Positions 29,142-60,485 of a stretch of 64,000 nucleotides of DNA are shown here, piece after piece (the stretch's first letter is position 1; each line of letters opens with the position of its first letter). Under the pieces are notes generated by a model. It did no database searches, was not told where the DNA came from, and saw nothing but the letters and a program-made list of their open reading frames with translations. The DNA is taken from positions 3,162,001 to 3,226,000 of the forward strand of contig NC_045148.1 in the NCBI RefSeq assembly GCF_008831285.2, written 5' to 3'. Source of the stretch: Nymphaea colorata. Taxonomy: Eukaryota > Streptophyta > Magnoliopsida > Nymphaeales > Nymphaeaceae. The position numbers and the translations under genes were made by a program.

Positions 29142-29617
29142 TGTTGGGATTTCTCCCCATAACGCATATACAAAATCAAACGTATATACCCTAAAACAGG
29201 ATCATGCTCATGCTAAATCATTGAAATAAACAAAACCTTAAACTGAAGCGGAAGCGTACCTGAATCCATCTGATCTGGTGCACGGGAAGATCGCAGCAGG
29301 GTCTTCCAGGGTACGTGCGGCGCGCTTGAGGTCTCTCTCAGATGGGGAAGAGGAAAACCCTAGAAACCAATGTTTCAGGCAACCATTTGCACGACCCCAG
29401 GGACCACTACCATTTTATAATAAAGACAATTACGGATTCCACCCATCAAAGAGTCCGTAATTCCGTACTGGTATCTATACATTTCAAAATTACCCCATAC
29501 CATCTAAAATAACGTAATATCCCAAAATGCAATCACTTAAGCGAATATTTACGTTAAGACAGCCATAATGTCTGAAATTCCTCATAGACATATGCCGGCC
29601 CACCAAATGATCTTACA
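29142..29617 (-). repeat. 3' LTR of the 29.1-35.2 kb copia element
   Basis: Ends are TGTTGGG at the left and TCTTACA at the right on the plus strand. It is the same length as its partner at 34723. Confidence 0.95.
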
Positions 29618-30431
29618 ATCTCCCATTTGGGCCAAATATGTCTTAATACATTCAGACATTACATAAAACCTTAGGAGCTCATAATTGCTATCTTATAAAC
29701 GTCATTTTCACCAATCTCGTCCATGACCATATCAACACAGAACCAAAGCGGCTTTCGCTATAATAAAATTAGCTAAACCTTCAATGATCACAAATGTTAA
29801 CATAATCAATGACATTGATCTGATATGGATGTATAGCATGAGAATTACATGTAATGTGATTACAACATGTCTATTCTCAACTGGTCCAACTTTAAAACCT
29901 TATGGAGATCAAAACCTAACACATAAACACAGAATGGAACCAAAGAACTTTAAACTTTATTCTGCAGAAAACTGAATATGTGTCCATACATAAGAGCAAA
30001 CAAAATACAAACTCCCACTAAACCAGCACATCATCCAAGGATAACACCCTCATACGAACAACATATTCGTGAAAGACCTTATGTGTTAAACCCTTGGCAA
30101 GCGGATCCGCAAATCATAGAGTTTGTCCCAATATGCTCTAAAGACACCTGACCATTCTGTATCCCCTCTTTAACAGCTCAAAAAAACTTAATGTCGATGT
30201 GTTTCGACTTTGACAAACTGTGGCTGTTATAAGAGTACATGACTGCTGAATTATTTTCACACAACAACCTTAGTGGTCTTTCTAAATCATACATAATGCG
30301 CAGCCTCGTGACAAAAATTTTGCAATCACAAAACCTGATTGGATGCCATTATCTTGGCACCCAGCAAAGTCAGAATCTGAATACCTAATGATCTCCCACT
30401 GGTCTGACTTCCTGTATGTAAGCACAAAAAT

Positions 30432-31200
30432 TTATGTTCTTTTCAAGTACCTCAAAACTCTTTTGGCTGCTTTCCAATGACCCATACCAGGATCACTTAA
30501 GTGTCTGCCTAACATTCCAATGATAAAAGCAATATCCGGACGAGTACAAACCTGAGCATACATAAGATTTCCCACAACAGACGAATAGGGAATCCTTTCA
30601 ATTTCCTTAGATTCGATTTCACTTTTAGGACACTGTTTGAGACTAAACTTGTCTCCTTTAGCAACTGGAGTATCTCTAGGTTTATAATCCTTCATGCCAT
30701 ATCGCTGAAGCACCTTATCAATGTAGGTCTTTTGTGATAATCCAAGAATATCCCGAGAACGATCTCGAAATATTTAGATTTCCAATACAAAAGATGCACA
30801 ACCAAGATCCTTCATGTCAAATTGTGTTGACAAAAAATTCTTAGTTTCATGCAATATGCCCACATCATTACTTGTCAGCAATATATCATTGACATATAAA
30901 ACCAGAAAGATAAATTTGCTCCACTGAAGTTTTGGTATACACATTCATCAACCATATTAGTTTCGAAACCAAATGAAACTATAATTTAATAAAATTTGTA
31001 ATACCATTGACTGGAAAGCTTGCTTTAGTCCATATATGGATTTTCTTAGTGACATCTCTACTTAATTTTCTTGAGGTTGTTGAGTTTGTTCTTCAGTATG
31101 GAGATCGACATCATTGCCTTCTTCTGAATAGAGTGGACTCAGGTCCCTCTTCAAAGGCAATGCTTCTAACCTGATCACCTCCTCAAACTCAATATCCTCA
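30432..31200 (-). pseudogene. RT / RNase H remnant of the 29.1-35.2 kb copia element
   Basis: Minus-strand remains begin with an acidic hinge (FEEVIRLEALPLKRDL), then jump straight to KSIYGLKQA, so the N-terminal RT fingers are deleted. The catalytic motif reads YVND at 30896-30885, where YVDD is required. The open piece 30432-30713 covers IPYSSVVGNLMYA and RPDIAF, and broken RNase H text continues left to about 30000 (CENNSAV, DIKFF, DPLAKGL). Stops and frameshifts are frequent. Nothing here can be catalytic. Confidence 0.85.
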
Positions 31201-31420
31201 AAGAAATGGGCATTTCCCTTTTAAAGAAAGACTTACTGAATGGACTATAAAACTTATAACCCCTTAATGTTTATTCATTTTCCCTTTATACATACAATGC
31301 AAACATTAAAGTCTACAAAATCAAAGGGACTCAAGAATTCTATTCGACATAAGCCTTTTATTCTCTTTTCAGAGATTTATCTTAAGCGTCAATGCCATAA
31401 CATAGCAGAATTCTCTTTGG

Positions 31421-31654
31421 CTAATTTCTTTTAGTACCACTAAACGGAACATGCAAGGTTTCATGATATGGATCAACTGTATCAAGCAAATAGAGGTTAT
31501 AGCAACTAGACAAAGAACTAGTGGCAATCAAATTTGAATGCAGAAACAACTTGAATTTATTTCCTCCAAATGAACAATAATAACCAAATTTGTCCAGTAA
31601 AGAAATAAAAAACAAATTCCGTCTAAAAGACGGTACTACATAAGTTTCTGTCAA
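31421..31654 (-). pseudogene. Protease / pre-integrase remnant of the same copia element
   Basis: The frame TETYVVPSFRRNLFFISLLDK and following residues matches the segment between the copia protease and the integrase zinc domain. Integrase proper (HHCC, D-D-E) is absent: the next recognisable text to the left is the hinge upstream of RT, so roughly 1 kb has been lost. Confidence 0.75.
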
Positions 31655-31859
31655 ATTCCAAAAACAACCAGTCTTTAATAATAACCCAAAAAATCTGCTA
31701 TGGCTTCAATCTTCGCCTTCATGTCATCGTCCTCATAGATGAATCTTTCAGCATCAATTGGCGTCTGACAATTTAGGCAGCCCTGCACAATAAACACTTA
31801 TGTGAGTAGTAGCAACCGAATCTACCCACAAGTGCCTTGGTACTGAAATTAAATTAACC

Positions 31860-32675
31860 TCAGAACAAACCCAAAGGAAGAATCGTACCTTTCTTTTCAC
31901 GCCATGCGTGATACTTAGTATAATCCTTCTTCATATGACCTTCATCCTTGCAAAAGAAGCAGCTTGATTTGTCTTCCTTATGCTTCTTTTGTTTCTTGAT
32001 GGATGCGTGATCAACTGCAATTTCTTTAGCCGTCTTTCTTTTCTTACTTTTAAGCGTAGTAGCCAAGTGAGCACTTTCTATCCTATCATGCTTCAATTTC
32101 TCCTCTTCTTCCACACAGTGCGAAATGAGCTCATTAAGAGTCCATTTCTCCTTCTGACAGTTATAACTAACTTTAAATTGTCCAAACTGTGGTGGAAGAG
32201 AAAGAAGAACCATATGCACTATAAAGTCTTCAGGTAACCTCAGACCTAGTGCCTGTAATTTTGAAGCAAGATGAGACATTTCCATAATGTGCTCCCGTAT
32301 GTTCCCCTTGCCTTTAAACCTCAGCGTCATAAGTTTACTCAAAAGAGTGCTTGTTTCAGCCTTTTTATTTTTAGCAAAACGTTTTTCAATCTCTTCAAGG
32401 AACGCCTTGGCACTAGCCTTTTCAGTAATAGAGCCCCTAAAATTTTCTGGGATTGATCTCTTCATGATCATTAGACACATGCGGTTTGAGTGTTCCCACC
32501 GTTCAAAGTACCGCTTATCCTCATGGGAACTTTGATCTGTTGGATGAGGTGGGCACGACTCTCTAAATGCAAGGTCAAGATCCATACAACCCAGAACAAT
32601 CATGACAGTTTCTTTCCAGTCCTTAAAATTCGAACCATTTAACTCAGGAACAGTACTCAAATTTGCAGATATCAT
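31860..32675 (-). pseudogene. Gag of the 29.1-35.2 kb copia element, zinc knuckle mutated
   Basis: An open frame runs from the ATG at 32675 (MISANLSTVPELNGSNFKDW) for 271 codons. It carries the UBN2/gag_polyprotein-type core (residues about 10-200) and a basic stretch before a zinc knuckle that reads CFFCKDEGHMKKDY. The last cysteine of CX2CX4HX4C is Tyr, a single G-to-A type change. A short open extension to 32717 precedes the ATG behind a TTTGTACAG sequence resembling a splice acceptor, so the long leader may contain an intron. Gag would package the element RNA into virus-like particles; the lost zinc ligand should impair RNA binding. Confidence 0.8.
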
Positions 32676-33469
32676 AGAAGCAGAACTCACTGTACAAAGA
32701 ACAACAAAAAATACCAAACATGCTCACAATCAATATATGTACAAAGATGAAACAACAAATATAAATGAATTTAAATACAATGGCCTAAATCCCATCACAA
32801 GGTACTGGTGCAACGTTAATATTCAATCTTTGGATTGAAATACTAACTGCAAGTGGTATTCTTGGTCAACAATGAATATAAATAATTAACCCTGTCAAAC
32901 AACGAGCCTATCTTTGGATTGACTCGCTATTCACATGGAAACCTGAAAAATTATCACATATTCATTGCCCTGTATACTTAAACCTGACCAAACAACAATC
33001 CTCCTTTGGGCTGATCATTGTTCGCATGGATCAAGTATACTATCATCTAATGTTTAAAACAAGCAAATTCGTACAACAGAGGTCACTTTGGCGACATAAA
33101 GTACAAACATACTTATTTCAAACAACAGACATGGTCAAAGATCAAATTCATAATCCAAACATTCATCTAAAGCACATACACAATTTTAATAACATGCAAA
33201 AACATGATACATGAATTAAAATTTATATACAAAATTTGCCATTCATTGAATCCAAAACCAAAAGATTCAATGATGTGACACATACAAAATTTCCTTACAT
33301 GAATCCAAAACCAAAATGATTCAATGAAATGGGCCCAAAAGAGTCCAAATTTTTATAAACCAGTACCATAATCGTGCTTAAGAGGGTCAAGAACTACTAA
33401 ATCGGCCTTAAAATAGCCTGTATCGTTCTTAAACCACAACAAAAGCACCCACAAATGCCCTAAATATGG

Positions 33470-33895
33470 TTGAACCGGTCAAAAATTGGACAAACCGTTC
33501 AAAATTAGACCGTATCGGTTCCAAAACCCAATGAACCGGTTAAAAATGGCTAAAAAACGGTTCCAGAACTCAATGAACCGGTCTGAAAATGCCCGAATCG
33601 GTTCGAAAATCAACTTAATCAGTTCTGAAATGCTAGAATCGGTTCTAAAACTGAATGAACCGGTTCTGAAAAGCCCTGAATCGGTCCGAATCGGTTCTGA
33701 AATGAATGAACCGGTCCCAAAATGGTCCGAATCGGATCTGAAAGGTCCGAACCGGTCTGAATCGGATTGAATCGGTTCTGAATCGTAATGAACCGGTTCG
33801 AGTCTTTTCCAAAACCGGTTTAAAAAAATGAACCGATTTACTTAAACCAAATGGATACGGGTCGGGTCCGACGAGACCCGACCCGGTCCGAAAAA
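33470..33895. repeat. Degenerate AACCGGTTC / GAATCGGTT minisatellite in the copia leader
   Basis: Some 20 imperfect copies of a 12-24 bp motif built on GAACCGGTTCTGAAATG and its variant GAATCGGTTC occur in direct order. The short frames on both strands here (repeats of F-R-T-D-S-I-R-F-R type on the minus strand) simply translate the repeat. It lies between the primer site and gag. Confidence 0.85.
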
Positions 33896-34620
33896 TTAAC
33901 ATAAACGCGCTCGAGCGGGCGGCGGCAAAATTTTTTTTTTTTTTTTTTTAAATAACGATGGAACCGGATCGGGTCTGTCACGACCCGACCCGGGCCGACC
34001 CGCCCGCTCGACCGCGCGAGCGGTCGCGGGCATCGTCTCCACCGCTCGCCTGCCGAACGGCAGGCGGGCGATGGTCAACCACCGGCAGGCCGCCCAACTT
34101 CGTGGGTGGCCGCCGGCAGGTGTCGCCTGGATGGCCGGCCGTCTCCTACTGAAAACCGGCCGGAAACGGCCGGTTTTTCACCTTCTGATTTCCGCCCCTA
34201 TGCTGGTCTTGGGCGGCTGAAACGGCAGCCAGAAAGCCGCCGGCAGGGCACCGGAGACGTTGGGTGGGCGCCGGCGTGTCGCATGGGTCCGTCCGGCGAC
34301 AACTAAGTCGTCGGCGGTCTCCCTACGCCTGCCATCGTCCCTCCCAGCCGTCGCCTATCCTGCGGTCCCCTTTTCCTTGTTCTTCTGTTTTCGCTGCAAC
34401 AGAGACGCGGAGAGCGCCGACTGGCCACCCAACGGCGTGGGTGGCCGCAGGCAGGACGCGCTCCAACGGCCGGAGGCCCGCCATCGCCCAACGGCGACTG
34501 ACGCCCGCCGATCCTATCGTCCCCTTCTCCGATCCTCTGATGGCTACAACGGAAGCCCGACGGCTTCCGTCGCACGCCCTCAACCCTAAAATTTTTTTTT
34601 TTTTTTTTTTTGAAAAACTT
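33896..34620. repeat. GC-rich part of the copia leader
   Basis: About 65% GC against an AT-rich background, rich in GCCGGC, CCGACC and GGCCGG, and bounded on each side by a T-run (33930-33949 and 34590-34610). It has no convincing gene. Overlapping frames on both strands are compositional, and it may be a captured foreign fragment. Confidence 0.6.
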
Positions 34621-34707
34621 GCAGCCGAAGAACCAAATGGGAAACATCCGAACGGGAAGAACGCACAAAAAATCATTCAAAAGATCAACGATTCAACAAT
34701 AAGCATA

Positions 34708-34720
34708 GGCTCTGATACCA
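34708..34720 (-). other. Primer binding site of the 29.1-35.2 kb copia element
   Basis: The minus strand reads TGGTATCAGAGCC, two bases from the LTR end. Confidence 0.93.
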
Positions 34721-34722
34721 AA

Positions 34723-35198
34723 TGTTGGGATTTCTCCCCATAACGCATATACAAAATCAAACGTATATACCCTAAAACAGGATCATGCTCATGATAAATC
34801 ATTGAAATAAACGAAACCTTAAACTGAAGTGGAAGCGTACCTGAATCCATCTGATCTGGTGCACGGGAAGATCGCAGCAGGGTCTTCCAGGGTACGTGCG
34901 GCGCGCTTGAGGTCTCTCTCAGATGGGGAAGAGGAAAACCCTAGAAACCAATGTTTCAAGCAACCATTTGCACGACCCCAGGGACCACTACCATTTTATA
35001 ATAAAGACAATTACGGATTCCACCCATCAAAGAGTCTGTAATTCCGTACTGGTATCTATACATTTCAAAATTACCCCATACCATCTAAAATGACGTAATA
35101 TCCCAAAATGCAATCACTTAAGCGGATATTTACGTTAAGACAGCCATAATGTCTGAAATTCCTCATAGACATATGCCGGCCCACCAAATGATCTTACA
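34723..35198 (-). repeat. 5' LTR of the 29.1-35.2 kb copia element
   Basis: Partner of 29142-29617. A TATA-like TATAAAATGG (minus) lies at about 35000-34991. Confidence 0.95.
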
Positions 35199-35203
35199 TT
35201 CTT

Positions 35204-35480: not shown

Positions 35481-35621
35481 ATGGGGGACACCGTTGAGTG
35501 TGATACCTGCGTTCTCAAGACGCCTCACTTCTTCAAAGTTCTCATGGAGCACTCTCGGGTCCAACTGGTTTTCTCTCCTTCTCTCTGTCTCTCTCTTCTC
35601 CTGAGAATGAAAGCGCTGGTT

Positions 35622-35973
35622 TGTTAACAAAACTGATAAGGATGAATCCGTTGGAGAGAAAATCAGCAAACAAGATATGGAGCTGGTAATAAAAGATTGT
35701 GATCAAATAAAAAAGGCAGAAAAATCAGAAGAAAGGGAAAGACGGAAATTTGGGGATCAAATGAAGATTTCATCTAATCTAGGCAAGAACAACCTTGCCT
35801 ACAATAAGACGTGATTTCTTTCCTATAAAAGGGACTCGACTCTCCCATTGTAATCATCTTCTTATTGAATGAAAAATTGTTCGAGTGCCTTCCGATCGTG
35901 GATGTAGGCTCAATCAGAGCTGAACCACGTTACTTGCTGTCTTTCATCCTCCTCTCTTCTTCTGTTTTCATTA
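35622..35973 (+). repeat. 5' LTR of the inverted-gag copia element
   Basis: Starts TGTTAACAAAAC and ends TTTTCATTA. A TATA box CTATAAAAGGG lies at about 35823-35833. Confidence 0.92.
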
Positions 35974-35985
35974 TGGTATCAGAGC
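35974..35985 (+). other. Primer binding site of the inverted-gag copia element
   Basis: TGGTATCAGAGC directly after the 5' LTR. The next bases, TGATGC, merge with the complement of the inverted protease region. Confidence 0.9.
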
Positions 35986-36932
35986 TGATGCTCCAGTGTC
36001 GGCTAACCATTCTGAGTTGTTTGTATCATCAATAGTAATGGCGGCAAGTGCTTGTTGGGCATCCCTAGCTTGATAGGCATGATTAAATCTTTCAAAACAC
36101 TTTGCAAAATGATATTTCTTACCATAAATTTGACAAACAACGGGGTTTTTGTTATTTTTGTCATCACCATTTGGAGCGAGATTGGAATTGTCATGTGGTC
36201 GATTTTGATACTGTCCTCGCCCTTGATAGTGGCCACGTCCTCTATAGCTGCGTGCACGCATGCGACCACGTCCAGATTGTTGATGTGTCATGGCCATGAT
36301 AGGAGGAGTGGGACTCTTTATCCGGGAATCAAAACTTTGAAGAAGAGAGACAGCCTCTTCATAAGGAAGCGTAGGTGGTCGAAGCATGGATGCAATAAAT
36401 GCTTCGTATCCTTCTCCAAGTCCTTGAAGTAGCCAGTAAACTTGAGCCCCTTCGTCAATAGATTTTCCAATAGCTGAAAGATCGTCGCATATTCGTTTGA
36501 ATTTTCCTATATAGGCTTCCACAGAATCATCATTCTTCTTAAGCGAAGTTAGCAAATGTGTGAGATGGAATTCTCTCTCATGCGATTTACGAGAGAAGGT
36601 ATTCATAAGAACCCTCCAAATATCCTTGGATGTCTCAAGGCCAACAACTAGGCTAGGAGCACTTTCGGACAACGTACTGGTTATCCATCCCTTGATTAAG
36701 CGATCAGTCTTCCTCCAAGCAATAAAATGAAGATTGGGAATTTTCTAAGAAGAAGAATCATCAATAAATTCTGGTGGGGCAGTAACTTCTCCAGTCAAAA
36801 ACCCTTGAAGATCTTGGCTCTCAACCAGTGCCAAAATTTGTGTTTTCCATATTCAGCTCGTAGCTTGAGAGAAACGAAATTTGCAACATTGACAGTATAA
36901 GGATAAGGGAAAACAGGTGTTGAAGTCGCCAT
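35974..36932 (-). pseudogene. Inverted gag-protease segment inside the copia element
   Basis: On the minus strand an ATG at 36932 starts MATSTPVFPYPY, followed by one frameshift and a stop. An open frame from 36672 then encodes a gag core (SKDIWRVLMNTFSRKS...VEAYIGKFKRICDDLSAIG), an RG-rich tract (GRGRMRARSYRGRGHYQGRG), a knuckle reading CQIYGKKYHFAKC, with Tyr at the second Cys, and the protease start WLADTGASA. The frame then runs into the complement of the primer site. It is opposite to the element's LTR, primer site and RNase H, so no Gag can be made from the genomic RNA. Confidence 0.85.
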
Positions 36933-37523
36933 TTAAGAACAATTTCAGTCGTAAAGAAAATGCCGTTTACTGAAATAAAGAGGCGGAAATAAACAACCTG
37001 CTCTTCTTTTACCCTGTTTCACAACCAGCGGCGCTTAAAATTACAAGCGCTGCTGCCACGAATCTTCAGAAAAAAAGTGCAAAGGTGCCTGATTTTAACA
37101 ACGCCCCATAAAGCTGTCGTGAACAGAGAGGGAGAACTTCCTCTGTTCTGTCTTTGTTCTCCCTTTGTTTCAGCAACAAGAGATGATCGATTCTGCCGTA
37201 AACAACAGAAACGCCGTGAGCAATGATACCGGTGGAAGACCCAAACGGTCTTAAGCAGCTTCCGGCAAGTCGGAGGCAGAGAGGGTTGTCGTGCCCTTTC
37301 CACAGCAGCAGCTTGTCGTGGTATGATTGATGCCTCTTCTCAAAAGAGGGCGGTGGTGCTGTCGTGAATAGAGAGGGATACCAACAGCGGCTTCTAACCA
37401 ACCTCCCGGGTATGACTGATGCCTCTCTAAGAAGAGGGCGGTGGTGCTCGTGGAAGACTCAAACGTTAAAAAAAGAGCTGAACCACGTTAAAAAAAGGGC
37501 GGTGGTGCTCGTGGAAGACTCAA
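36933..37523. repeat. Patchwork of short duplicated pieces in the copia interior
   Basis: A 28 bp segment GGGCGGTGGTGCTCGTGG... occurs at 37436-37463 and 37497-37524, with a shorter version at 37347. The preceding TATGA(C/T)TGATGCCTCT is also repeated (37322 and 37411). Between the two long copies lies GAGCTGAACCACGTTA, a 16 bp piece of this element's own LTR. No gene is present. Confidence 0.75.
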
Positions 37524-38549
37524 ATGAAGACAGAAAAGGGAATTCTCTTATGTCAAACCAAGTATGCTAAAGACATTCTTGAAAGAGCAAAGATGGAGGA
37601 CTGCAAACCAAGCATCACGCCAATGAGTCCAAAAATGTCTCATTATAAGGACAATGAAGTAAAGTTCGCAAATCCTACTCTCTACAGGCAGATAGTTGGA
37701 TCCTTGCAATACTTGACTCTAACGCGACCTGATATCTCATTTGCTGTCTATTATGTTAGTCAGTTTATGCATGAGCCACTTCAGATTCACTATCAAATGG
37801 TCAAAAGAATTCTTCGATACATTAAAGGATCAATACACATGGGACTAAACATATTGATGCAAAGCACTCTTGATTTATATGCTTTTTCAGACTCAGATTG
37901 GGCAGGATGTTCTCAAACAAGGCGATCCACCACAGGATTTTGTGTTTTTCTTGGTGCAAATTGTGTGTCTTGGAGTGCAAAGAAGCAAAATAGTGTAGCC
38001 AGATCTAGTACCGAAGCTGAATATAGAGCAATGGCATCGACAGCGGCAGAACTTACATGGATACAATTCTTAATGAAGGACATTGGAATACCAATTATCA
38101 AAGTCCCAATTTTATATTGTGATAATAAGAGCTCACTTTATATGACGGCAAATCCAGTATTTCATAACCGAAGCAAGCACATTCAGATTGATTTTCATTA
38201 TGTTCGAGAAAGAGTAGCTCAAAAGCAACTTCAAACTAAGTATATTTCAACCACAAATCAAGTTGCCGATCTGTTTACCAAAAGCTTATCAAAGCATACT
38301 TTCAATCATCTCAAGACCAAACTCAGCCTTCAGCAGCGGCTTAGTTTGAGGGGGAATGTTAACAAAACTGATAAGGATGAATCCGTTGGAGAGAAAATCA
38401 GCAATCAAGATATGGAGCTGGTAATAAAAGATTGTGATCAAATAAAAAAGGCAGAAAAATCAGAAGAAAGGGAAAGGCGGAAATTTGGGGATCAAATGAA
38501 GATTTCATCTAATCTAGGCAAGAACAACCTTGCCTACAATAAGACGTGA
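37524..38549 (+). CDS. C-terminal RT and RNase H of the inverted-gag copia element
   Basis: An open frame of 341 codons. It starts within RT (ILLCQTKYAKDILERAKMED, a region downstream of the lost YVDD), then RPDISFAVYYVSQFM, then RNase H with SDSDWAGC, RSTTGFCVFLG, SSTEAEYRAM and YCDNKSSLYM. It ends VADLFTKSLSKHTF before reading through the polypurine tract into the 3' LTR. RNase H looks intact, but the RT catalytic core is absent and the first ATG is not a natural start. It is a 3' fragment of a polyprotein, probably not translated alone. Confidence 0.82.
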   Translation: MKTEKGILLCQTKYAKDILERAKMEDCKPSITPMSPKMSHYKDNEVKFANPTLYRQIVGSLQYLTLTRPDISFAVYYVSQFMHEPLQIHYQMVKRILRYIKGSIHMGLNILMQSTLDLYAFSDSDWAGCSQTRRSTTGFCVFLGANCVSWSAKKQNSVARSSTEAEYRAMASTAAELTWIQFLMKDIGIPIIKVPILYCDNKSSLYMTANPVFHNRSKHIQIDFHYVRERVAQKQLQTKYISTTNQVADLFTKSLSKHTFNHLKTKLSLQQRLSLRGNVNKTDKDESVGEKISNQDMELVIKDCDQIKKAEKSEERERRKFGDQMKISSNLGKNNLAYNKT

Positions 38550-38708
38550 TTTCTTCCCTATAAAAGGGACTCGACTCTCCCATTGTAATCATCTTCTTAT
38601 TGAATGAAAAATTGTTCGAGTGCCTTCCGATCGTGGACGTAGGCTCAATCAGAGCTGAACCACGTTACTTGCTGTCTTTCATCCTCCTCTCTTCTTCTGT
38701 TTTCATTA
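38357..38708 (+). repeat. 3' LTR of the inverted-gag copia element
   Basis: Partner of 35622-35973. The TATA-box copy is at about 38558-38568. Confidence 0.92.
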
Positions 38709-39050
38709 TGGTTTTCTTGCAGAAAATCCCGCCAGCATTTGTCATTGCATCAAAAGTGTGTGAACACATGCCATACTAGAAAGTCTTGCCGTTAAGAATT
38801 GGCCTGTCGAGAAACTGATGATGGGAACAGGCTGGTCTTTCAGAGGGGCTGGAAGGCGTTCTTTGATTTCCAGAGTCTGAGCATGGGAACCTTCTTGGTA
38901 TTTAGATATAATGGGAAGATGAAGTTCAGCATTCCAGTGTTTGGTAGGAGCTGCTGCGAGGACAGCTATGCTCCTACTGACCTGGTCCATGAAATTACTC
39001 GCCATTTGAGAAAACCAGTTCATCTCTCTAGTCAATTTCCTACACCTTGT

Positions 39051-39344
39051 TATAAAAATTTAAAATGCTGCTGGTGTTGGTATGTCATTGTTTCCTTATT
39101 TTGGCTTCCAGTTAACCTTTACATAACTTTGTGCGATTATCATGAAAGGTTCTCGTTTTATTGTCTTTTTGAGGAAGTGAGTGTTTGATGCCAACCTTTG
39201 TACTTCTTCTTGCTTTCTTTTTCCTTTCCAACCTCTGGGAAGGTTGTCAGAAAGGCTCACCTTGAGGGTGCTCCTCGGTCGAACACCTTCTTATCAAGCA
39301 ACCCTTCTTTATTCATTTAAAGTTGTCATTAGATGACATGGCTT
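39051..39344. other. Spacer between pseudogene Z and duplication copy 1
   Basis: No gene recognised. Sequence homology with copy 2 starts near 39345. Confidence 0.4.
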
Positions 39345-39701
39345 TGTCACCAACTTCTTTAAAGAAGGGTTAGTAGACTTGAACGAAGAAGCTGCATCCC
39401 ATGCGTCAGATGATGCAGATCTTCCCTTTTCCTCCTCATGAGATGGTTGGAGCGCGTCTTCTACCTGGTCTTCATGACGAATGAAGTCAATACTGTGATA
39501 TGCAGATATTAAGTCTTTTCTGGCAGGGCTTTTGTCAACAATAATAACCGTAAAACGTAATTCCCCCCTCATCGAAAAACCAAAAAATCCCCTGTTTCCA
39601 AAGTCATTCCTCTCAACAAATTTCTCCCACCCTTTTCTGAATATCATATCATTACCTGCCCCCAAAATTTCAATGACCCAACATATACTGAACTGGTCTT
39701 T
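39345..39701 (-). pseudogene. B3-domain pseudogene X1 (exon 2 fragment)
   Basis: The minus strand encodes ILGAGNDMIFRKGWEKFVE, GELRFTVIIVDKSPA, then an acidic linker and the start of a second B3 domain (STNPSLKKLV). The reading frame through the linker is intact, unlike X2. However, 79 bp present in X2 (57518-57596) are deleted here, removing the splice acceptor and the first 20 codons of the exon (RIPPAFMKHL...). No exon for the second B3 domain follows to the left. It is therefore a pseudogene. Confidence 0.8.
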
Positions 39702-40229
39702 CCGACATTTATGATCAACATGACCACCCGCTACCGGCTCCAAATCAATAAATTCATTCTAATAGAAATATAGAATGACATAAAGGAGAATAAAATAATG
39801 AATGAACAGTTCACCAAAATGAAGGACAACAAGGAAGCTAAATGAGGAACACTAAGTAATCCATGAAACGTACCAACCACTAGATCAATCGAACAATACG
39901 TGTGTCTTTAGCAGGGAATTGACTGTTCCATAAAAATTAAGTCCAAAAAACCATTTCCCCTTCTCTTTGTTCTAGGAAAGGATAAGGGTAAAAAGGATGG
40001 ACAAACCCGGAAGTGAAGCAGAAAAATAAAAACAAAGATACTACTAATGAGAGAAAATGAGTAGGCATAGCAACTTAAAAGATTGCAGAAGAAGCAAGCA
40101 AGAGAATAACGTGGTGCCAGCACTAAAGAGGAAGAAGAAACAAGAAGATGAGGAATGATCAGTCTCAGAACGGAAAGAAGAAAATGATATAAGTCCTTGA
40201 ACATCCTTCGCACAGTAGCTCCACCTTAA

Positions 40230-40720
40230 GCTCTGCGGAACAACGGCGGTTTTGCATCTTTGCCGTCTAGTCTCGAGATTCTGAGGCTGGCAAGCTTCCA
40301 AGTTGGGTTTCAGAGGAGGAGGAGGTCGAAGCGACCTTCACCTTGGGTTCGATCTTCCCCTCTCTACTGTCTGTGCTTTGTTCTTACAGCTCAGGAGGAA
40401 AGGGGCAGCCAGACAACTCTGTCCTACCACCCTCCACCTCTGCTTCTGCCTCTCTCAGTCTCTTGCGCTAGAGCATTTTCTCACATGCATCATCTGTCAC
40501 AGTCTCACAGAACACGAAAAGCTGCCTCCAGTTCACATTGCAAGATCAAATGGCCGTCAGGATTCCAGACTGCACGGAGATGCAGTCGAACACCATGAAA
40601 ATTATGATAGGACAAACTTTTACGATAACACCATGTCAGAAGCAAATTTCTTTCTGAATCATATGACATACACTTGTATTTTTCCTGATAATAAAAAAGA
40701 TTGAAAGCAAGAACTTCGAG
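40230..40720. other. Conserved segment upstream of X1, function unknown
   Basis: Nearly identical to 58130-58620. It has a 133-codon frame on the plus strand (40303-40704) and shorter ones on the minus strand; none resembles a known protein. It probably contains the promoter or first exon of X1, which I could not identify with confidence. Confidence 0.35.
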
Positions 40721-40870
40721 TTAAACTTCTGCTACAAACTCAACGACAAAAACCAAAATAGAGAGCGTTGAAATTCCGTCGATGTCTCTGCAAATAAACT
40801 CCATGCATATCGGAAGACGATCGAATCTGAACATATTCCGATGAACCAGCGCTAACGAAATGCAGATACA

Positions 40871-41164
40871 TCAAATATGGCAACTATTGGGAATAGCAGT
40901 CATATTGAGGCATTCAAAATGATGTAAAACTATTTCCAAATCTAAAGGAGAAATCAAAGGACAGAGCAGCAAAAGAGCATATCTATAAACCTTCTCTGGT
41001 ACAATTAGAATCTTTTTCTCCCTCGTCCAATGGTGGGAAAGATCGAAAGGAATTGCGGCCTCCGAATGCAGCTTAAACACATTAACTATTGCGTAACGAA
41101 GAATATTTCCCCATGCATTTCTCAAAAGCGTCCTCATATTCGAGCGGGTTATGTGTTTAGGCAT
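40871..41164 (-). other. Conserved 97-codon ORF (copy 1), unknown
   Basis: The minus-strand frame (MPKHITRSNMRTLLRNAWGN...) is kept in copy 2 (58774-59067) with only a few substitutions and no stop. The piece to about 41000 reads like protein and is followed by AAG-GTTTAT, a possible donor, so it may be an exon or captured gene fragment. I do not recognise the family. Conservation alone is weak evidence because the whole block is a recent duplicate. Confidence 0.3.
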
Positions 41165-41374
41165 GAATGGAAAATGGAGATGTTGAAATCATTATGGATT
41201 CAGATCCCAATATTAGAGGTCCAAGGTGCAATGCTGCCGGTAGAAGAAATTTCCGAGACTCGGATTCTGACAATGTCAAGTTTTACATGTTTTATGTAAA
41301 AATATCATCCCTATGCTCTGGAAGAAAACAGAAATGCCAGCACGCTAACTCATGCACAACTTGTATGTGAATAC

Positions 41375-42519
41375 ATCCACGGAGCGTTGCCAATGATACA
41401 TCCACACATTGATATTATCTATGGATTTTTGCCACTGAATTTTTGGAGATAAGAATCCGAACCTTCCATGAAATGATTCAGTGAAGATCAAGAAAGTTAT
41501 TACTGATAGGTATGGAGCAGTTATAGATATGCGTGGACCTGTTATTGATCCTGATAACACAGCAAATAATAGAAACAAAGAAACAAATAGTGAAGAACAT
41601 CAGAACTGTTGTAAAAGCTCCTAAAATCAAGGAGCAATGACCATTGGTAACATCCCCTATATCTGTGAGGGACTTTATCTCCTTGGATATCAAGGCTGAG
41701 CCTTCCATGGTGAAAAAAAACGATAAATGATTAATGGAAACAACCATTTCGTTTTGCTTCTTTTATTTTTTTTCAACATGGTATTAGAGAGGTGCTTGCT
41801 GAAGAAAACTTGTGTCCCAATGAAAGCTTTTGGATGATGGAAAAGGATCACCGACTTCTTCTCCAAAGCAATATTCACTCCATCCAGTTTTAAAACAAGA
41901 CGCAAATAGATGAAGGTAATGATGCTGCGCATAGTCTCAAGGAAAATGGTAAGACCGTCAATGCATATGAACAACAAATGGATATGTTCGAACGTCGTTC
42001 GAGTTCGAATGACCCTATATAAAGAAGCAGATCCTTGTTGCCAAATACTTTTCTTCATACTGGTCGATTGTTTCAAATGATAAACACTAATTGGCACCTA
42101 GCATCTTTCACCTGGCATTTTCATATTTTTATAAAATTGTACATATATACTTAAAAACACTAAGGATGTAAACAGAGAATAGCTGTTCCTAAATCCCATA
42201 CTAATCATGTGGGATTTAAGGACTACTTTCTCGAGTTATTTTTGTTTGCATCGCTAAGATGATGCATGTGGGAATTAAGAACTCTTTCTCGAGTTGCTTC
42301 TGCTTACATCCTGTAAATATGTTAAATTTTATAATAATATGAAAGTGCTAGGTGAAGATTAATGTTTATCATTTGAAACAATCGGAAGAAAAATACTTGG
42401 AAACACAGACCTGTATCACATAAACAGCATTTGAACATATTCAATGGCAAAAATCCATAGATAATAACAATGTCTTTTAGATAGCAATTGAACATAACCA
42501 CTGGCAACGCTCCACGGAT
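41375..42519. mobile_element. Inverted-repeat element, copy 1 (1145 bp)
   Basis: The left arm begins ATCCACGGAGCGTTGCCA. The right arm, read on the other strand, begins ATCCGTGGAGCGTTGCCA. A second paired stretch, ATTATCTATGGATTTTTGCCA, follows about 30-50 bp inside each arm. Both ends are flanked by atac (41371-41374 and 42520-42523), a possible 4 bp target duplication. Minus-strand frames inside (41478-41747 with a hydrophobic helix, 41690-42097) resemble no known transposase. Class is undetermined. Confidence 0.5.
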
Positions 42520-42571
42520 ATACGATCGTCATTCCCATCATTCTGTCAATTAGCTTGCATACAAATGTTCA

Positions 42572-45203
42572 TTATGTTCCGTCCCGAAAAATATGGACAT
42601 TGAATAGCTTCTTTCGTGCTACAAATTCAAAAACACAGACATCTCGTTTCTTCAGGCAATGTGCTTCAAAGAAGTTGTGCCACCCAGAACTCAGTGATCT
42701 TTCCATACGAGGCAAGGAATGAGCTTTATTGGAGCTGATCCATATCAGGATTTTAACGGGCCATTGCCTACCATCAGGATCCTCAAGCTTCACCTCACAA
42801 GTCTTCTTTGGCACACTTCCATTTGGAGCGTCAGCTGGAATACGCTGATAAAAGAAAGAATATACAACAGTAGTTTACAGATCATTTGATCAAGAAAAAA
42901 AAAGGCATAGATAATCGGAAATGGTAGACAAAATTCCTGGTTAAATTGATGATGAGCATAAGAAAGCAACTGTAAGCATTCCCACAACAGGAGCGACGGA
43001 AGAAGAAGACCATCACCATGACTGTGTAAGTGCAGTGAATGCTTACCAAAATGAAATTGAAAGAAGACAGCCACATGAATAGACGCTTACCATACGATAT
43101 GAGTCGCTTTCTGCCACCATCTTCTTGAATGTCGGATTAGTAGTCTTTAGTGAAGATGCAGCATCCCACGCTTTCGTTCTTGTGCATTTTTTTTCCATGT
43201 CCACGTCAGCAGATTGCAAATGGTCTTCATCAGCAATCACATCCGCAGTGGGAGTTGTTGTGCATTTTTCTTCCATGTCGACATCAACGGACTGCAAATG
43301 GTCTTCAGCAGCAATCACATCCACAGTGGGAGTTGCAGGAGACTTCTCCACACAGCTTCTGTTGAAGATGGTGACTGTAAAATGCAACTCTCCATCATAT
43401 CGGAAAACCAAAAAGTCACTTGTGTCTAAGCCATTCTCCTCAACAAATTTCATCCATCCCTCCTCGAATATTATATGGTCACCCATCCTCAACAATTTTA
43501 TATCCCAAGATCTACCAGCGTGGTCTTTGACAATGGCTGCTCCAGATTCACCAACTCTCAGATGCTTCAAAAATGCAGGTGGAATTTGCTGCGAAGAAAT
43601 AACTAGAAAGCTTTATAATCTCCTGGAATGGAACTAGTAGCACACCGACCGAACTGAAACTCTATTCTAGGCACGGGTGGAGCAAGGATTTCTTGCTTGG
43701 GGGGCCGAGTTATCCACAGACAAACCATAATACACATACACACAAAAACACAAATATATAATCAAAATATCTAAAAAATATGTACATACGTAATATATGC
43801 CTTTCAATTGTCAAATTTCTCTACTATTACACTTCTTATCTCTGCCTTAAATAAATGCTAAAAAAGTTTCCATGAAAGAACAAAATGAAAGAGTGTTCCT
43901 CAGCGTATGTGTATAAATGTGGGTGTTTTGTGTATGTGAATAATGACTTTGTTTTCATATCTTTTCTCCTTAAATGCTAAACAAAAACTATTTCGACAAC
44001 CAAAAAATAAACACAAGTGACTATCCACACAGAATGTGTCACACAGCAAGATCTGGAAGAAACATTTTTGTCATGTTGCCGAAAACAATAATGGCTGTTC
44101 CTCTTATGCCCACAACCGACAAATTGCCTAATTCAATTACCAACCAAGAATACAAAATGGCTCACAAAACAGTCTTATATAAATAATTTAATAAAGACAA
44201 CAAGACACAAAAGAGAGAAGCAAAAAAGAATGCTGAAAAGAACCCAAAGGCGATAAAGTGTTGCTTATCAAAGATAAAGTGTTTGATACTGAAAAGAACC
44301 CAAAGCCGATAAAGGGTTACACTTGTTAATGAAGCATTTCGTTTAAACATCTCGAAAGTTGTGAAAATATCTCCCATTTTTCTGGTAACAAAAGTTGGAG
44401 GCTTACCCTCCATGCAGCTGTTTTCCGGAATTTAGTAATCAATTATGCAAAATAATGAATGAAGTGTATTCTGTGTCCTCAAAGACCCAAGATCATGTTG
44501 ATGCCCTAAAATGGCATCAACCAAAAAAAAATTGAAAATACTTGAAAGGGCGCATTAAGTTTTCCAAAATTTTTGGAGGCACAATGAACCAAAAGATCAA
44601 TCAGATTAATGAAGTTTTTGAAATTCGATTACAGAAGCCCATTAAATTGTTCAAATTCCTACCGGGGCCAGATTAGAATTTTTAAAATATTAATGGATAA
44701 ATTTAGTTTCCAATATTTGAGGATGGGGTTGGAGGCCGCCCAAGCTCGCCTTGTTCTACGTAAATTTGATGAAAGAAATTCAAGAAGAGAGAGCATGGGA
44801 GATTATCATAGTGCTTGAAGAATAAAACTCACACAAGGAAAAGAAAAACACATTCATAATGTGACGGACCATAATAGTTAATACATAATACTGAGAAGCA
44901 AATAATAGCAAAGAAAGCTAAAAAACGAGGACAAGAAAGGAGACAAAAGTAGAAACGAAAGAGAGATAAAAGCAGATAGGAGGAGGCAATCCAGAAATGG
45001 GGAGTAAATTAGTAAACGAGATGAACGAATAGCAAGACAATCACCAAGCTCTCGCGAAAATCTTCAATCAAGACTTTGAAGAATTGTGGCTTCTTCCATG
45101 AACATCCGCACTGCTTCTTCTTAGCAGCCCCTGGAAAACAGCATTGAACTCCGATATTTCGGCGGCGTGTAGCCCTCGCCTTTCCCGAGCAATTGTTTCT
45201 CAT
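42572..45203 (-). CDS. Two-B3-domain REM-like protein Y1 (three exons, 309 aa)
   Basis: Exons on the minus strand: 45203-45045 (53 codons), 43588-43091 (166) and 42844-42572 (90 plus stop). All junctions are GT-AG and phase 0. Exon 1 gives the start of B3 domain 1 (WKKPQFFKVLIEDFRESL, residues 36-53). Exon 2 completes it (IPPAFLKHL, FEEGWMKFVE, DFLVFRYDGELHFTVTIF, to about 132), then an acidic linker (133-202), then the start of B3 domain 2 (NPTFKKMVAESDSYRM). Exon 3 supplies the rest of that domain to residue 309. B3 domains bind DNA and act in the nucleus; the arrangement matches the REM subfamily, often expressed in meristems and reproductive tissue. Odd: the linker holds a tandem 26-residue duplication absent from Y2. 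No defect is seen. I infer the exon model by eye from Y2 conservation and splice signals. Confidence 0.85.
43178..43333 (-). repeat. In-frame 78 bp tandem duplication in Y1 exon 2
   Basis: Two adjacent 78 bp units (43333-43256 and 43255-43178) encode TPT(V/A)DVIA(A/D)EDHLQS and then (V/A)DVDME(E/K)KCT. Y2 has one unit, and the exon lengths differ by exactly 78 bp (498 against 420). Confidence 0.93.
43660..43730 (-). repeat. MITE-end-like fragment in Y1 intron 1
   Basis: The phrase gggtggagcaaggatttcttgcttggggggcc resembles the GGGGCGGAGC(T/C)AGGATTT end of the GC-ended MITEs at 23465 and 47647. The same fragment lies in Y2 intron 1 (about 61515-61550), so it predates the duplication. Confidence 0.4.
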
Positions 45204-45420
45204 GTCGGCAGGGGTGGAGGAGGAGGAGGAAGAGGTAGAGGAAGAAAAGAAGAATTGGCGCGCCTATTTATTTTTGGCAGGCGAGGAGCTTTCGCTCCGC
45301 AGGTGTACGGTGCACTGCTGTACCACCCTTAATCATGATAGTGGTTCCTTCCTCTTCGTCTGGCGAGTGGCGAATACCTTTCGCTCGGCACTTGTACGGT
45401 GTATACCGCCATTTTTTTCA
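45204..45420 (-). promoter_or_regulatory. Promoter / 5' region of Y1
   Basis: Conserved with Y2: a CT-rich (minus sense) leader, then a TATA-like AATAAATAGGCGCGCC about 55-70 bp upstream of the ATG, then shared GTACGGTG text. In this copy the phrase tttcgctc..cag/gcacttgtacggtg occurs twice (about 45288 and 45379). Confidence 0.4.
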
Positions 45421-45748
45421 TGATCATGATCGTGGTATGGAAACTCAGAAAAGCAAGGGCTTCACTCGTTGGCCATACACGGAAATTGACATGGTGGAGC
45501 TGGATTAGGTGTCGTTGATAACTCCTCCCCTTTTTTTCAGTCGTCGAATTGTGATTGTCGAAAGCTATTTCATAATCAAAATTCTAATCCATCAAACGCC
45601 TCCTACAAAAGAAACTTCTCTCTACATGGAAAATGCTTGTGCAAGTCTATGAGTATATCCCCTGTTAAGGTTTTCGGCTTCATCTAAACAACTAAACAAA
45701 GAGAAGATGTCCCTTTGGTAGTCATGTGAGAATTGCCTCACGAATGAA

Positions 45749-49844: not shown

Positions 49845-50131
49845 TGAAGAATTGTGATAAACAGAGTTTGGACAGAGCTAAGAGAGAAGAAGAGAAGACA
49901 TTTTTACGTGGTTAGGCTAGTGTTGCCTACATCCACGGGGGAGAGATCAATCTTCTTTAATAATTTGAATTACAATCGTTCTCTTTTTATACAACAAAAG
50001 TTGAGAACGTTTGAGCAATTGCCTGAAACAAAAAGGAACGTTAGTTCAACGTTCAAAAAATTGATTGACGCACCTTCCTTATTCATTTAATTAACGAATA
50101 AGGCAATTGATCTCTCAATGGCATTTTATCA
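49845..50131 (-). repeat. 3' LTR of the 49.8-54.5 kb copia element
   Basis: Plus strand TGAAGAATTG...TTTTATCA, same length as its partner. Confidence 0.94.
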
Positions 50132-51300
50132 CTCCCCCTCAAGTGGGGAGTAGATGTTGTAGTATCTCCATTTGTCAGTTGCGAGTTGTAGTTTAGCTTT
50201 TGTGACTCCTTTAGTTAAGGCGTCAGCAACTTGTTCCACTCCACTTATGTGAAAAGTTTTGATATCTCCAGATTCAATCTTTTCTCTGACATAGTGGCAA
50301 TCAATTTCAATATGCTTTGTCCTTTCATGAAAGACTGGATTGGTTGAAATATATATGGCTGCTTGATTATCACAAAACATGTGCATAGGTTTTGAAACTT
50401 CAAGACTCAGTTCTTCAATCACATTTTTAGTTCATATGAGTTCACTGGTTCCTGTGGCCATGGTTCGATATTCCGCTTCAGCATTGGATCCAGCTACTGT
50501 CTTCTGTTTCTTGCATTTCCATGCCACAAGATTACCTCCGACAAAGATACAATATCCTATAGTTGATTTTCTGTCACCGATGTCTCCAACTCAGTCTGCA
50601 TCTATGAATGCAACTATATCCAAGTTTTGGTTCCTTTTGTACGAGAGTCCTTGTCTAGGAGTGTCTTTGATGTATTGAAGAATGTGATCTGTAGCTTTCA
50701 TATGTGACTCTCTTGGGCTTTTCATGTACCTGCTAATCACATTCACTGCAAACGAAATATCAGGTCTAGTGACAGATAAGTAAATAAGTTTACCAACTAA
50801 ATGTTGATATACTTCCTTGTTGACCTCTGGTTCATCCTCACATGATCCCAATTTGAGATTTGTTTCAAACGAAGTGTCGGCAGGACGTGCATCCGTCTTT
50901 TCAGTTTCCTTTAATATATCAAGTGCATATTTTCTTTGACAAATGAAGATGCCTTTGTGTGATTGGGCTATCTCAATTATGAGAAAGTATTTGAGTTTCC
51001 TCGGGTCTTTTATATCAAATGTGGTTCTCAAGTATTGTTTGAGATTATGTATGCCTTCAACGTCATCACCTGTCGCTACTATATCATCCACATAAATTAA
51101 CACAACAATGATGTGTTCTTTGCCTTTTTTTTATGAAGAGCATATTGTCAGAGTGACATCGGTGATATCCAAAGTTTTTTAAGGTCATGCTTAATTTCAG
51201 GTACCACGCTCTAAGAGACTCTTTCAGACCATAGATAGCTTTGTTGAGTCTGCACATAATTTTTCCCTTCATCTAGATGCCCTAGATGAAGTGTCATGTA
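50132..51300 (-). pseudogene. RT and RNase H of the 49.8-54.5 kb copia element, frameshifted
   Basis: Minus-strand pieces: NKAIYGLKESLRAWY (51084-51272); LIYVDDIVATGDD through RPDISFAVNVISRYM and IVAFIDAD (50591-51103), keeping the catalytic YVDD; a break; then SKPMHMFCDNQAAIYISTNP to VADALTKGVTKAKL (50129-50422), ending at the polypurine tract. At least two frameshifts and one in-frame stop separate them, so no single polyprotein is possible. Confidence 0.85.
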
Positions 51301-51370
51301 AATTTCTTCACTCAGTTCACCTTGCAAGAAAGTATTCTTCACATCTAGTTGATGGAGTCTCTAGTTCAGG

Positions 51371-52735
51371 TTACTGGCCAAATATAAGAGAATCCTTATT
51401 CATTTTTGTCACAGGAGCAAAAGTTTCATCATAGTCCAGTCTTTTTGTTTGAGTAAATCCCTTAGCTACTAGACGTGTTTTGTATCTTTCTAGTGAGCCG
51501 TTACTCTTGTATTTGACTCTGTAGTGCCATTTGCAACCAACAACGTTAGAATTCTTTGGTTTTGTAACAATCTCCCAAGTCTTGTTACGATTTAGGGCCT
51601 CTAATTCTTCTTCCATTGCCTTTCTCCAATTTGAGTCCTTCTTAGCTTCTTGAAAAGTTTGAGGCTCACTAATTTTATCAAGACTCTTGATGAAGTTGAT
51701 GTGCTGAGTATAAATCTTATCATAAGAAACAAAATTGCTGATGGGATAATGACTGCAAGAATAAGTCTCATATTCTGTTAGATGATAGGGCAATCTTCGA
51801 ATTCTCTCAGATCTTCTAAGTTCTTGGTTAGAGGGTTCATCACCATCTGTAGTAATAACAGGTTCTTGATTTTCTGAGTGACTTTTAGTTTCTAGAAGAG
51901 TTTCTCTAGTGACATGTTCATCACTTATGGTAAAAAATAAATCATCAAAATCATGCAAGTTAGGAGATATAAAGGTTTTCTTAGTAATATGATCAAAACA
52001 TACATATCTCTTGCTTTGTGAGTTGTAGTGGACAAAAATGCATTTGGTTGAGTGATGACTAAGTTTGTCTCTTTTTGCATAGTGTAGCCACACATAAACC
52101 ACATAGCCAAACACACGCAAATGATTAAGTTTTGGTTCATGACCCGTAAGTTTGCCAAGATGCTTACTAGGAGTTCTATTGATTACATAGCAAGTCGAAG
52201 AGATAGCATATTTCCAATATTTTTTAGGCACATTCATTTGGAATAATATGCTTCTAACAACTTCTAAAAGATGTCTATTTTTTCTTTCAGAAACACCGTT
52301 TTGTTGATGTGTGTCAACACACGATGTTTGATGTAGTATGTCATGCTCGTCTAAGAAGGTTTTGAAACCAGAATTTTTGAACTCAGTACCGTTATCAGAC
52401 CTGAAGCATTTTATTTTACAGTTGTATTGAACTCCAATCATCTTATTAAAATTTTGAAAATGAAAGAGTGCTTCAGATTTGTTTTTCATAAAATAAACCC
52501 AAGTGGATCTGAAAAAATCGTCAATAAACATAACATAATATTTAAATCCATCCAAAGAATCTACGGGCGCAGGACCCCAAACATCAGAGTGAATAAGATC
52601 AAATGGTTGTTCACTAATAGAATCAAATAAAGAGAACTTTGGTCTGGTCATTCTAGCAAACGTACAAATATCACATGTGTGATTGTCAAAATAATGCTTG
52701 GAAAAAAGATAATTTAACATTCGTGGCCCATCCAT
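51371..52735 (-). pseudogene. Integrase to N-terminal RT of the same copia element
   Basis: A 454-codon open frame begins just downstream of the integrase zinc region (CDICTFARMTRPKF). It contains HSDVWGPAPVDSLDGFKYYV, then CFRSDNGTEF and HQQNGVSERKNRHLLE, giving all three D-D-E residues. The hinge and RT start follow (WRKAMEEELEALNRNKTWE, CKWHYRVKYKSNGSLERYK, YDETFAPVTK). It ends early within RT. The catalytic core is preserved although the element as a whole is dead. Confidence 0.85.
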
Positions 52736-53115
52736 TGATGCTAGATCTCTCCCTCATTCATGGAAGCCACATTCAAAGCTTGATGAGGAACTTTGATTTG
52801 GTAGAGTCCATTCACTAGGCGCCCCTCACCAATCATCGTCTGAGTCTTCCGATCCTGAAATGCAACGTTAGTACCACATTGCAGTCTAATTCTTTGGTAA
52901 TTTTTGCTACAGACAATAGATTAAACTTAAGTTTAGGCATGACAAGAATCTCACTAGTATAATTTTTGTCAAAAAAGTCTATTCTTCCTTTTCCTTTGAC
53001 GGCAATAGGCGCTCTGTTGGCTGCAACAACTGGTCCAATGTCGTCAATAGGGTGAGATATATAGAGGTGAGTAAACTAGTTAGCAACAACTGGTCCAATG
53101 TCCTGAGTCGACTAT

Positions 53116-53997
53116 TCAATGAGAGCTAGAATCAAGACAAGAGATGTAGGTCATACCTTTAGCGTGATCGGAAGAGTTGATGGTGATACGCGCGGTCTTT
53201 TCTGCTTGGAGTTCCTTTATCATTTCAGCAAGAGTCTCCAATGTGATAGGCTGGTCTGATGAAGAAGTTGTGAGACTCGTCTGATTGTTCTCCTTCTTGA
53301 TTATCCCACTGAAATTGTTTTCTTTCTTAGATGACCTATTTGAGGTGGTCTTGGAGGTATGACTTATACCTCTGTCAGGTTTTCCATGGATAAACCAGCA
53401 TGTGTCACAAGAATGGCCAATTCTTTTACAGTGTGAGCATTTAAGTTTTCTGCCATCATCACGTTTGCCTCTGAAATTTCTGCTATCTATACCGTTTACA
53501 ACAAAAGCTGCCTTTTCATCGTTTGACACATCTTGATCGTTGTAGTTTAAGGTGCCCATAGCCTTTCTTCTTGACTCTTCTCGTATAAGAAGGGCACAAA
53601 CTGAACTTAGCGAAGGTAGCTCATGTGCCATGAGAATTTGACAGTCATTCGGAAGTCCAGCAAGAATTTCAAATATGCACTCCTGTTCACGTTGCTTCTT
53701 AGCTATAGAAAGATCGGTAGTCAATGGAGCATGAACATCTATCTCATCCCAAATTCCTTTAAAGGTGCCAATATAATCATTAATAGGAGTCGTCCCTTTC
53801 TTTAGACTTCCTTTTGTTTGAGACAGTTGGTACATGCAAGCAATATTATATTGTTCGCCGTAAAGATCTTTGGTGGCTTGCCACACCTCCTCAGCGGTGT
53901 CTAGAAAATTAAAACAGGCTGCTATCTTTGGCTCCATCGAATTGATGAGCCAAGACGCAACAGTGTCATTGGTTGATCGCCACTTGCCATATTTCAA
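53116..53997 (-). pseudogene. Gag of the 49.8-54.5 kb copia element
   Basis: An open frame of 293 codons starting downstream of the true gag start: further N-terminal text in other frames lies at 53998-54230. It carries a retrotransposon gag core (TAEEVWQATKDLYGEQYN...INDYIGTFKGIWDEID) and an intact zinc knuckle, CSHCKRIGHSCDTC (CX2CX4HX4C). The frame ends before protease. As the N-terminal part is frameshifted, full Gag is not encoded. Confidence 0.8.
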
Positions 53998-54241
53998 ATC
54001 ATTGAGTGGTGATCTTTTTGAGGTACCATCAATGTATACGAGTTTAGATTTTCCACTAAGGAATCAAGTGACTGCCTTAGACCAAGGTAAATAATTGAGA
54101 CAATCAAGCAAGGTATTAGTAATCTTGAGATTGGGATTACCTTGCTCGTGCACGACAAGTCTGTGCAAAGATCCATCACTGCCTTGCAAGATAGTGTGTT
54201 GTTCATTATCGTGCCTCTCTGCCTCAGGATGAAGATTTACC

Positions 54242-54253
54242 GCTCTGATACCA
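54242..54253 (-). other. Primer binding site of the 49.8-54.5 kb copia element
   Basis: The minus strand reads TGGTATCAGAGC, abutting the 5' LTR. Confidence 0.93.
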
Positions 54254-54540
54254 TGAAGAATTGCGATAAACAGAGTTTGGATAGAGCTAGGAGAGAAGAA
54301 GAGAAGGCATTTTTACGTGGTTCGGCTAGTGTTGCCCACGTCCACGGGAGAGAGATCAATCTTCCTTAATAATTTCAATTACAATCGTTCTCCTTTTATA
54401 CAACAAAAGTTGAGAACATTTCAGCAATTGCCTGAAATAAAAAGGAACGTTAGTTCAACGTTCAAAAAATTGATTGACGCACCTTCCTTATTCATTTAAT
54501 TAAAGAATAAGGCAATTGATCTCTCAGCAACATTTTATCA
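54254..54540 (-). repeat. 5' LTR of the 49.8-54.5 kb copia element
   Basis: Partner of 49845-50131. A TATA box, TATAAAAGGAG (minus), lies at about 54400-54390. Confidence 0.94.
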
Positions 54541-58620: not shown

Positions 58621-58773
58621 GAGTTAAACTTCTGCTACAAACTCAACGACAAAAACCAAAATAGAGAGCGTTGAAATTCCGTCGATGTCTCTGCAAATAA
58701 ACTCCATGCATATCGGAAGACGATCGAATCTGAACATATTCCGATGAACCAGCGCTAACGAAATGCAGATACA

Positions 58774-59067: not shown

Positions 59068-59278
59068 GAATGGAAAATGGAGATGTTGAAATCTTTATGG
59101 ATATCAGATCCCAATATTAGAGGTCCAAGGTGCAAAGCTGCCCGTAGAAGAAATTTCCGAGACTCGGATTCTGACAATGTCAAGTTTTACATGTTTTATG
59201 TAAAAATATCATCCCTATGCTCTGGAAGAAAACAGAAATGCCAGCACGCTAACTCATGCACAACTTGTATGTGAATAC

Positions 59279-60433: not shown

Positions 60434-60485
60434 ATACGATCGTCATTCCCATCATTCTGTCAATTAGCTTGCATACAAATGTTCA

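Follow-up and report, generated by a model that had tools for sequence, protein, structure and literature searches.

The Ty1/copia element spanning 35622-38708 of the window (the whole 64,000-nucleotide stretch of Nymphaea colorata DNA that was analysed, C11:3162001-3226000) carries its leader-gag-protease segment in inverted orientation, and is probably a lone defective member of a local Ty1/copia family that was scrambled during DNA copying and then integrated normally. A preliminary description, made from the sequence alone, had placed gag and protease on the minus strand between LTRs, primer-binding site (PBS), polypurine tract and RNase H that all lie on the plus strand; Pfam searches and alignments bear out this layout, the parts of which are:

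35617-35621, no strand: target-site duplication, left copy, TGGTT
35622-35973, plus strand: 5' LTR, 352 bp (LTR pair comparison)
35974-35985, plus strand: PBS, 12 nt, TGGTATCAGAGC (abuts the LTR edge)
35982-35985, no strand: junction A, where the PBS end and the inverted protease share the microhomology GAGC (canonical copies compared)
35982-36932, minus strand: inverted gag and start of protease, terminating in the protease motif DTGASA (Pfam, alignment)
36933-37463, minus strand: inverted 5' leader, which stops about 26 nt before the PBS (alignment to relative L033)
37464-37528, no strand: junction B, 65 bp of filler in which A-rich repeats, a piece of U5 and a repeat of the leader end are found
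37474-37490, plus strand: 17-bp U5 piece, identical to LTR 35916-35932
37496-37524, minus strand: exact 29-bp repeat of the leader end (first copy at 37435-37463)
37529-38356, plus strand: C-terminal end of RT and RNase H in normal orientation, then the polypurine tract
38357-38708, plus strand: 3' LTR (LTR pair comparison)
38709-38713, no strand: target-site duplication, right copy, TGGTT

The minus-strand gag matched PF14223 (Retrotran_gag_2, copia-type gag-polypeptide) with an E value of 3.1e-18. The plus-strand RT-tail/RNase H region aligned at 41% identity (203 aa) with the end of a pol from another copia element of the window, and a Pfam search of this piece itself gave no match. The polypurine tract, GAGGGGGAA, directly adjoins the 3' LTR, and the LTR ends were set by close canonical relatives, 4/4 of which have their own 5-bp duplications. 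We take the PBS to be the complement of the 3' end of the initiator Met tRNA; Rfam at the gathering threshold returned nothing in the window, and ARAGORN found no tRNA there. The inverted gag-protease contains a premature stop and two deletions, one of 3 bp and one that shifts the frame. Positions 2197-4678 of L033 (about 2.5 kb, protease to RT) are absent, and with integrase and most of RT lost the integrase/RT order is not readable in the element itself; the pol order in L033 is rve, then RVT_2. There is nothing unusual about it as an element: it is one dead copy.

The genome searched (407.8 Mb, 783 contigs) contains four close, near-full-length canonical relatives (L033-L036, at C11:14.57 Mb, C6:7.34 Mb, C3:27.33 Mb and C11:13.88 Mb) whose LTRs are 92-98% identical to those of the element. 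They resemble it in gag-protease (95-98%) and in RT-RNase H (97-98%, both from aligned differences), but are 5.5-5.7 kb long with gag in the sense orientation, integrase and RT being present (L033). The nearest relative by LTR, L033, differs from the element at 18/951 positions in the inverted gag-protease and at 18/828 in the non-inverted RT-RNase H; this equal divergence places the inverted segment in the same family as the rest. For each junction, both parent sequences can be read in the four relatives. An RNase H query recovered the same four at 97-98%, with the next match at 91% (best 40 of 944 candidates), and among the best 40 of 131 candidates nine loci beside this one have LTR and gag adjacent, all in canonical orientation.

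A second element, nested in opposite orientation and later trimmed, might also leave a minus-strand gag, and the window does hold another minus-strand copia (29142-35202); since the inverted segment is of one family with the host element, at equal divergence, and no minus-strand LTR copy was found around it, we consider nesting extremely improbable.

Viral contig and genome contig collections yielded no relatives of the element, and the gag query had no match in the plasmid collection. The RNase H query matched 3 plasmid records at 32-39% identity, two of them annotated as reverse-transcriptase proteins, with bacterial-plasmid record names. Two linear Streptomycetaceae plasmid records (NZ_CP115454.1 and NZ_CP115302.1) carry a copia-like RT-RNase H with 32% identity to the element; this possibly represents eukaryotic contamination.

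The element apparently lies within an intron of a decayed B3-like gene (35482-39100), the intron placement being read from the flanks; the piece downstream gave a B3 match below the curated cut-off (26.7 vs 30.1 bits). A segmental duplication joins 39340-45748 and 57153-64000 (about 6.4 kb in pieces, 88-97% identity, up to the window end); its first copy holds a B3-domain gene, and the second has a similar frame. The minus-strand copia-type element at 29142-35202 has 480-bp LTRs that are 98.3% identical and a gag fragment at 31863-32720; as donor of the inverted gag it was ruled out, the relatives showing one family. A third copia element, also on the minus strand (49845-54540), has 287-bp LTRs that are 93% identical and a pol in separate frames.

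At junction A the preliminary description had seen a 10-bp match between the text continuing from the PBS and the complement of the protease codons, and had proposed it as the homology used by a template switch. The canonical copies lack the TGATGC continuation after the PBS, so this match falls away: it is 4 bp against the nearest relative and never 10 in any of the four. After the PBS, L033 and L035 read TATCAGAGC then AATAG; L034 reads TATCAGAG then AAATAG (i.e., GAG then AAATAG); and L036 reads TATTAGAGCT then AAGG (i.e., GAGCT then AAGG). The canonical protease text in the relatives is GGAGCATCAGCTC then ATATG. The primer-site text thus shares 4 bp with the inverted protease (GAGCTGATGC) in L033/L035, 3 bp in L034 and 5 bp in L036. 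The GAGC is the last 4 nt of the 12-nt PBS, i.e., homology to the acceptor is present at the PBS 3' end. When inverted joins of L033 were drawn at random, at least 4 bp of homology occurred in 2.0% of 200,000 draws; a uniformly random internal breakpoint in L033 fell within the 4-bp GAGC ambiguity in about 0.1%, and within the first 36 nt in about 0.7%. It is this position of the join, at the PBS 3' end, that favours an origin during reverse transcription.

Junction B points to the same neighbourhood. The A-rich part of its filler consists of CGTTAAAAAAAG repeats, and the other components are sequences that flank the PBS, namely U5 and the leader end. The duplicates and the LTR piece noted earlier in this area are both present, at 29 rather than 28 bp and 17 rather than 16 bp. 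With the inverted leader stopping about 26 nt away from the PBS, both junctions have one flank next to the primer site, the LTR side in junction A and the leader side in junction B. The first copy of the leader end carries the allele of L035 (18-bp match) and the second that of L033/L034 (13-bp match), which hints, from one informative site, at two templates. The last filler bases (37520-37530) also match 11 bp of U3, so another source for these bases is possible.

We examined whether either junction recurs, as the preliminary description had suggested, and the genome-wide search found neither at another locus. A 20-mer across junction A, with at most 3 mismatches allowed, had 24 genome matches (3 for the reversed control) and was exact at the element only; one 2-mismatch match was a primer-site-like stretch in unrelated surroundings, and six 3-mismatch matches were canonical protease text. 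Junction B was contiguous at the element only, the other four matches being parts of its parents (5/5 candidates scored). A query joining LTR, PBS and inverted gag gave 47 matches and was contiguous at the element only (best 40 of 131 candidates). A mobile chimeric lineage, in which the inverted form is non-autonomous, is helped by intact relatives and is one of several copies, would have some basis: the element retains LTRs, PBS and polypurine tract, and L033 and L034 each have a 1424-aa frame free of stops and an LTR pair without differences. In these searches each junction nevertheless occurs once in the genome, which argues for a single event and makes such a lineage very improbable in this assembly. 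An amplified non-autonomous derivative (TRIM/LARD-like) was rejected on the same count, for it requires several rearranged copies.

A search for the LTR-end/PBS pattern with at most 2 mismatches found 633 sites (20 for the reversed control). Forty of the 633 were examined, 20 taken automatically with about 1.5 kb downstream and 20 hand-picked non-randomly with about 1.2 kb. Coding downstream of the PBS was sense at 34, antisense at 1 (this element) and not detected at 5, so that the 40 sites contained no second PBS-antisense case; close relatives of the element make up 2 of the 34 sense sites. At 2 other loci of the 40 the PBS continues as TGGTATCAGAGCCAGGTT. Two loci of another family (L059 and L060; C11:20.24 and 20.31 Mb) have a PBS followed almost directly by a sense C-terminal RT, with about 700 bp of other sequence between PBS and RT part in L060; they look like a deletion derivative with its left edge near the PBS.

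The matching LTRs (about 1% apart; 4 differences in 352) and the intact duplication, TGGTT on both sides, are as first described. They had been taken to time the rearrangement at or just before insertion; that use of them does not stand, since LTR divergence and target duplication date insertion only and are silent on when the internal segment was inverted. Changes private to the element (in none of the four relatives) comprise 13 substitutions (9 N, 4 S) and two deletions in gag, and 9 substitutions (4 N, 5 S) and zero deletions in RT-RNase H. Neither the N/S character of gag vs RT-RNase H (Fisher p 0.38) nor the location of both deletions in gag (p 0.29) differs significantly, and the inversion is therefore undated by decay. 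That it preceded insertion we infer from the anatomy of the junctions, not from dates.

The private changes also bear on an assembly or scaffolding artefact, in which pieces of different copies were joined. Close relatives from which such pieces might come do exist in the genome, but the inverted gag, with its 13 substitutions and two deletions absent from all four, was not borrowed from them; in addition, the window contains no N, and the 65 bp of templated filler at junction B are unlike an overlap error. We regard an artefact as highly improbable.

Two junctions, their parents, short homology, filler pieces and no second copy in the searches are what was observed. The likely explanation, in our judgment, is a failed second-strand transfer, in which switching by RT or microhomology end joining by the host inverted the segment before integration. 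The strand switch in reverse transcription first proposed for this element thus remains the best explanation, although the grounds then given for it, the 10-bp homology and the dating by LTRs and duplication, do not hold. In the normal course, plus-strand strong-stop DNA (the LTR plus a copy of the primer site) would move to the far end of the minus strand through PBS pairing. Here, the strong-stop 3' end GAGC may instead have met GCTC, within the protease region of a sense-strand template that was either RNA or plus DNA, and paired with it. Copying would then have run backwards via protease, gag and leader, and have halted about 26 nt before the PBS, the presumed seat of the primer complex; the U5 piece and the second leader copy would be traces of several short jumps. 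Either synthesis or end joining would next have resumed on the minus strand in RT, after which RNase H, polypurine tract and 3' LTR would have been completed. The order of the jumps, the template strand, the pre-integration timing and the choice of RT alone vs Pol theta end joining are what we infer in this scheme.

Ty1 and Ty3 plus-strand DNA stops after 12 nt of the primer tRNA have been copied, and strong-stop products accumulate in Ty3 particles, according to a review (PMC5371799). If the 12-nt stop is applied by analogy to a plant copia, GAGC would be the expected plus-strand strong-stop end. Second-strand transfer has been described in another review as using host alt-EJ factors and PBS microhomology (PMC12786077). 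Microhomology (junction A) and templated filler (junction B) are marks of Pol theta end joining, and RT jumping would leave similar marks; because RT switching and alt-EJ predict like marks, the two routes are not separated.

Inversion after insertion has to be weighed against this. A normal 5.6-kb element would later have broken near the PBS and in pol, and end joining would have flipped leader-gag-protease; this would also entail the loss of about 2.5 kb and a filler copied from nearby sequence. Several points are compatible with such a course: an internal inversion keeps LTRs and target duplication intact, the private changes give no date, the junction-A homology is short (3-5 bp by relative), and filler DNA and microhomology have been reported at plant T-DNA junctions (PMC8395108). 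If a chromosome broke near the PBS and was repaired with a flipped fragment and filler, the outcome would be much alike, and once such a break is given the coincidence is 1 in 10-25 (a guess), not about 1 in 1000. It would, however, require an independent cause for the breakpoint at the PBS 3' end and for a filler taken from U5 and the leader end, and we judge inversion after insertion, with the loss and filler that it entails, to be unlikely though still to be reckoned with.

Autointegration, the integration of a cDNA into itself, is a known source of inverted retroelement DNA; its inversion product has an LTR end joined to an internal site, and the join would be expected at the outer LTR terminus, accompanied by a short target duplication. 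The join here lies 12 nt past the inner LTR end, at the PBS, which leaves autointegration scarcely credible.

We therefore retain the failed second-strand transfer as the preferred reading. If it holds, the element is a base-level record, in a plant, of strong-stop DNA mispairing, and concerns a step lately assigned to host end joining in animals. Its signature, in which antisense internal sequence sharing a few bases of homology comes after the PBS, together with U5/leader filler, could be counted genome-wide and compared with and without Pol theta. It is a real, if tentative, possibility that second-strand transfer of plant copia elements depends on host microhomology end joining by Pol theta, and that a wrong partner gives rise to integrated fossils like this element. 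Were this true, scans of PBS edges for the fossil signature (PBS-end microhomology, inverted internal segment, templated filler) would read out the host end-joining pathway across plant genomes.

The element may be compared with several known systems. The alt-EJ (Pol theta) second-strand transfer outlined in PMC12786077 resembles it in that PBS microhomology joins plus-strand DNA, but concerns fly and mouse elements and normal replication. Template-switching complexes of Triticeae, which Sabot and Schulman (2007, PMC1950507) ascribe to faulty template switching, are likewise plant copia with a target duplication and matching outer LTRs; they are dimers with a third LTR and two cores, whereas this element has two LTRs, a 17-bp U5 piece and an inverted segment. 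As such a complex requires three LTRs around two cores, we rejected that assignment. Recombinants of Onsen via template switching are known, and no wording on inversion was found in the passages of PMC5668417 consulted. Our literature search, which covered titles, abstract openings and passages of some papers and in which subscription journals were thinly covered, found no inverted gag joined to a PBS in any plant element. Among HIV-1 proviruses, integrated copies whose internal piece is inverted do occur: in the study of PMC9278108, inversions were present in one provirus (1.3%), and inversions together with a deletion in another (1.3%). These belong to a retrovirus, and the passages of that source consulted do not describe PBS-end junctions. 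With inverted HIV-1 proviruses and plant template-switching dimers already known, we rate the PBS-joined inverted gag of this plant element as a new variant of such an accident.
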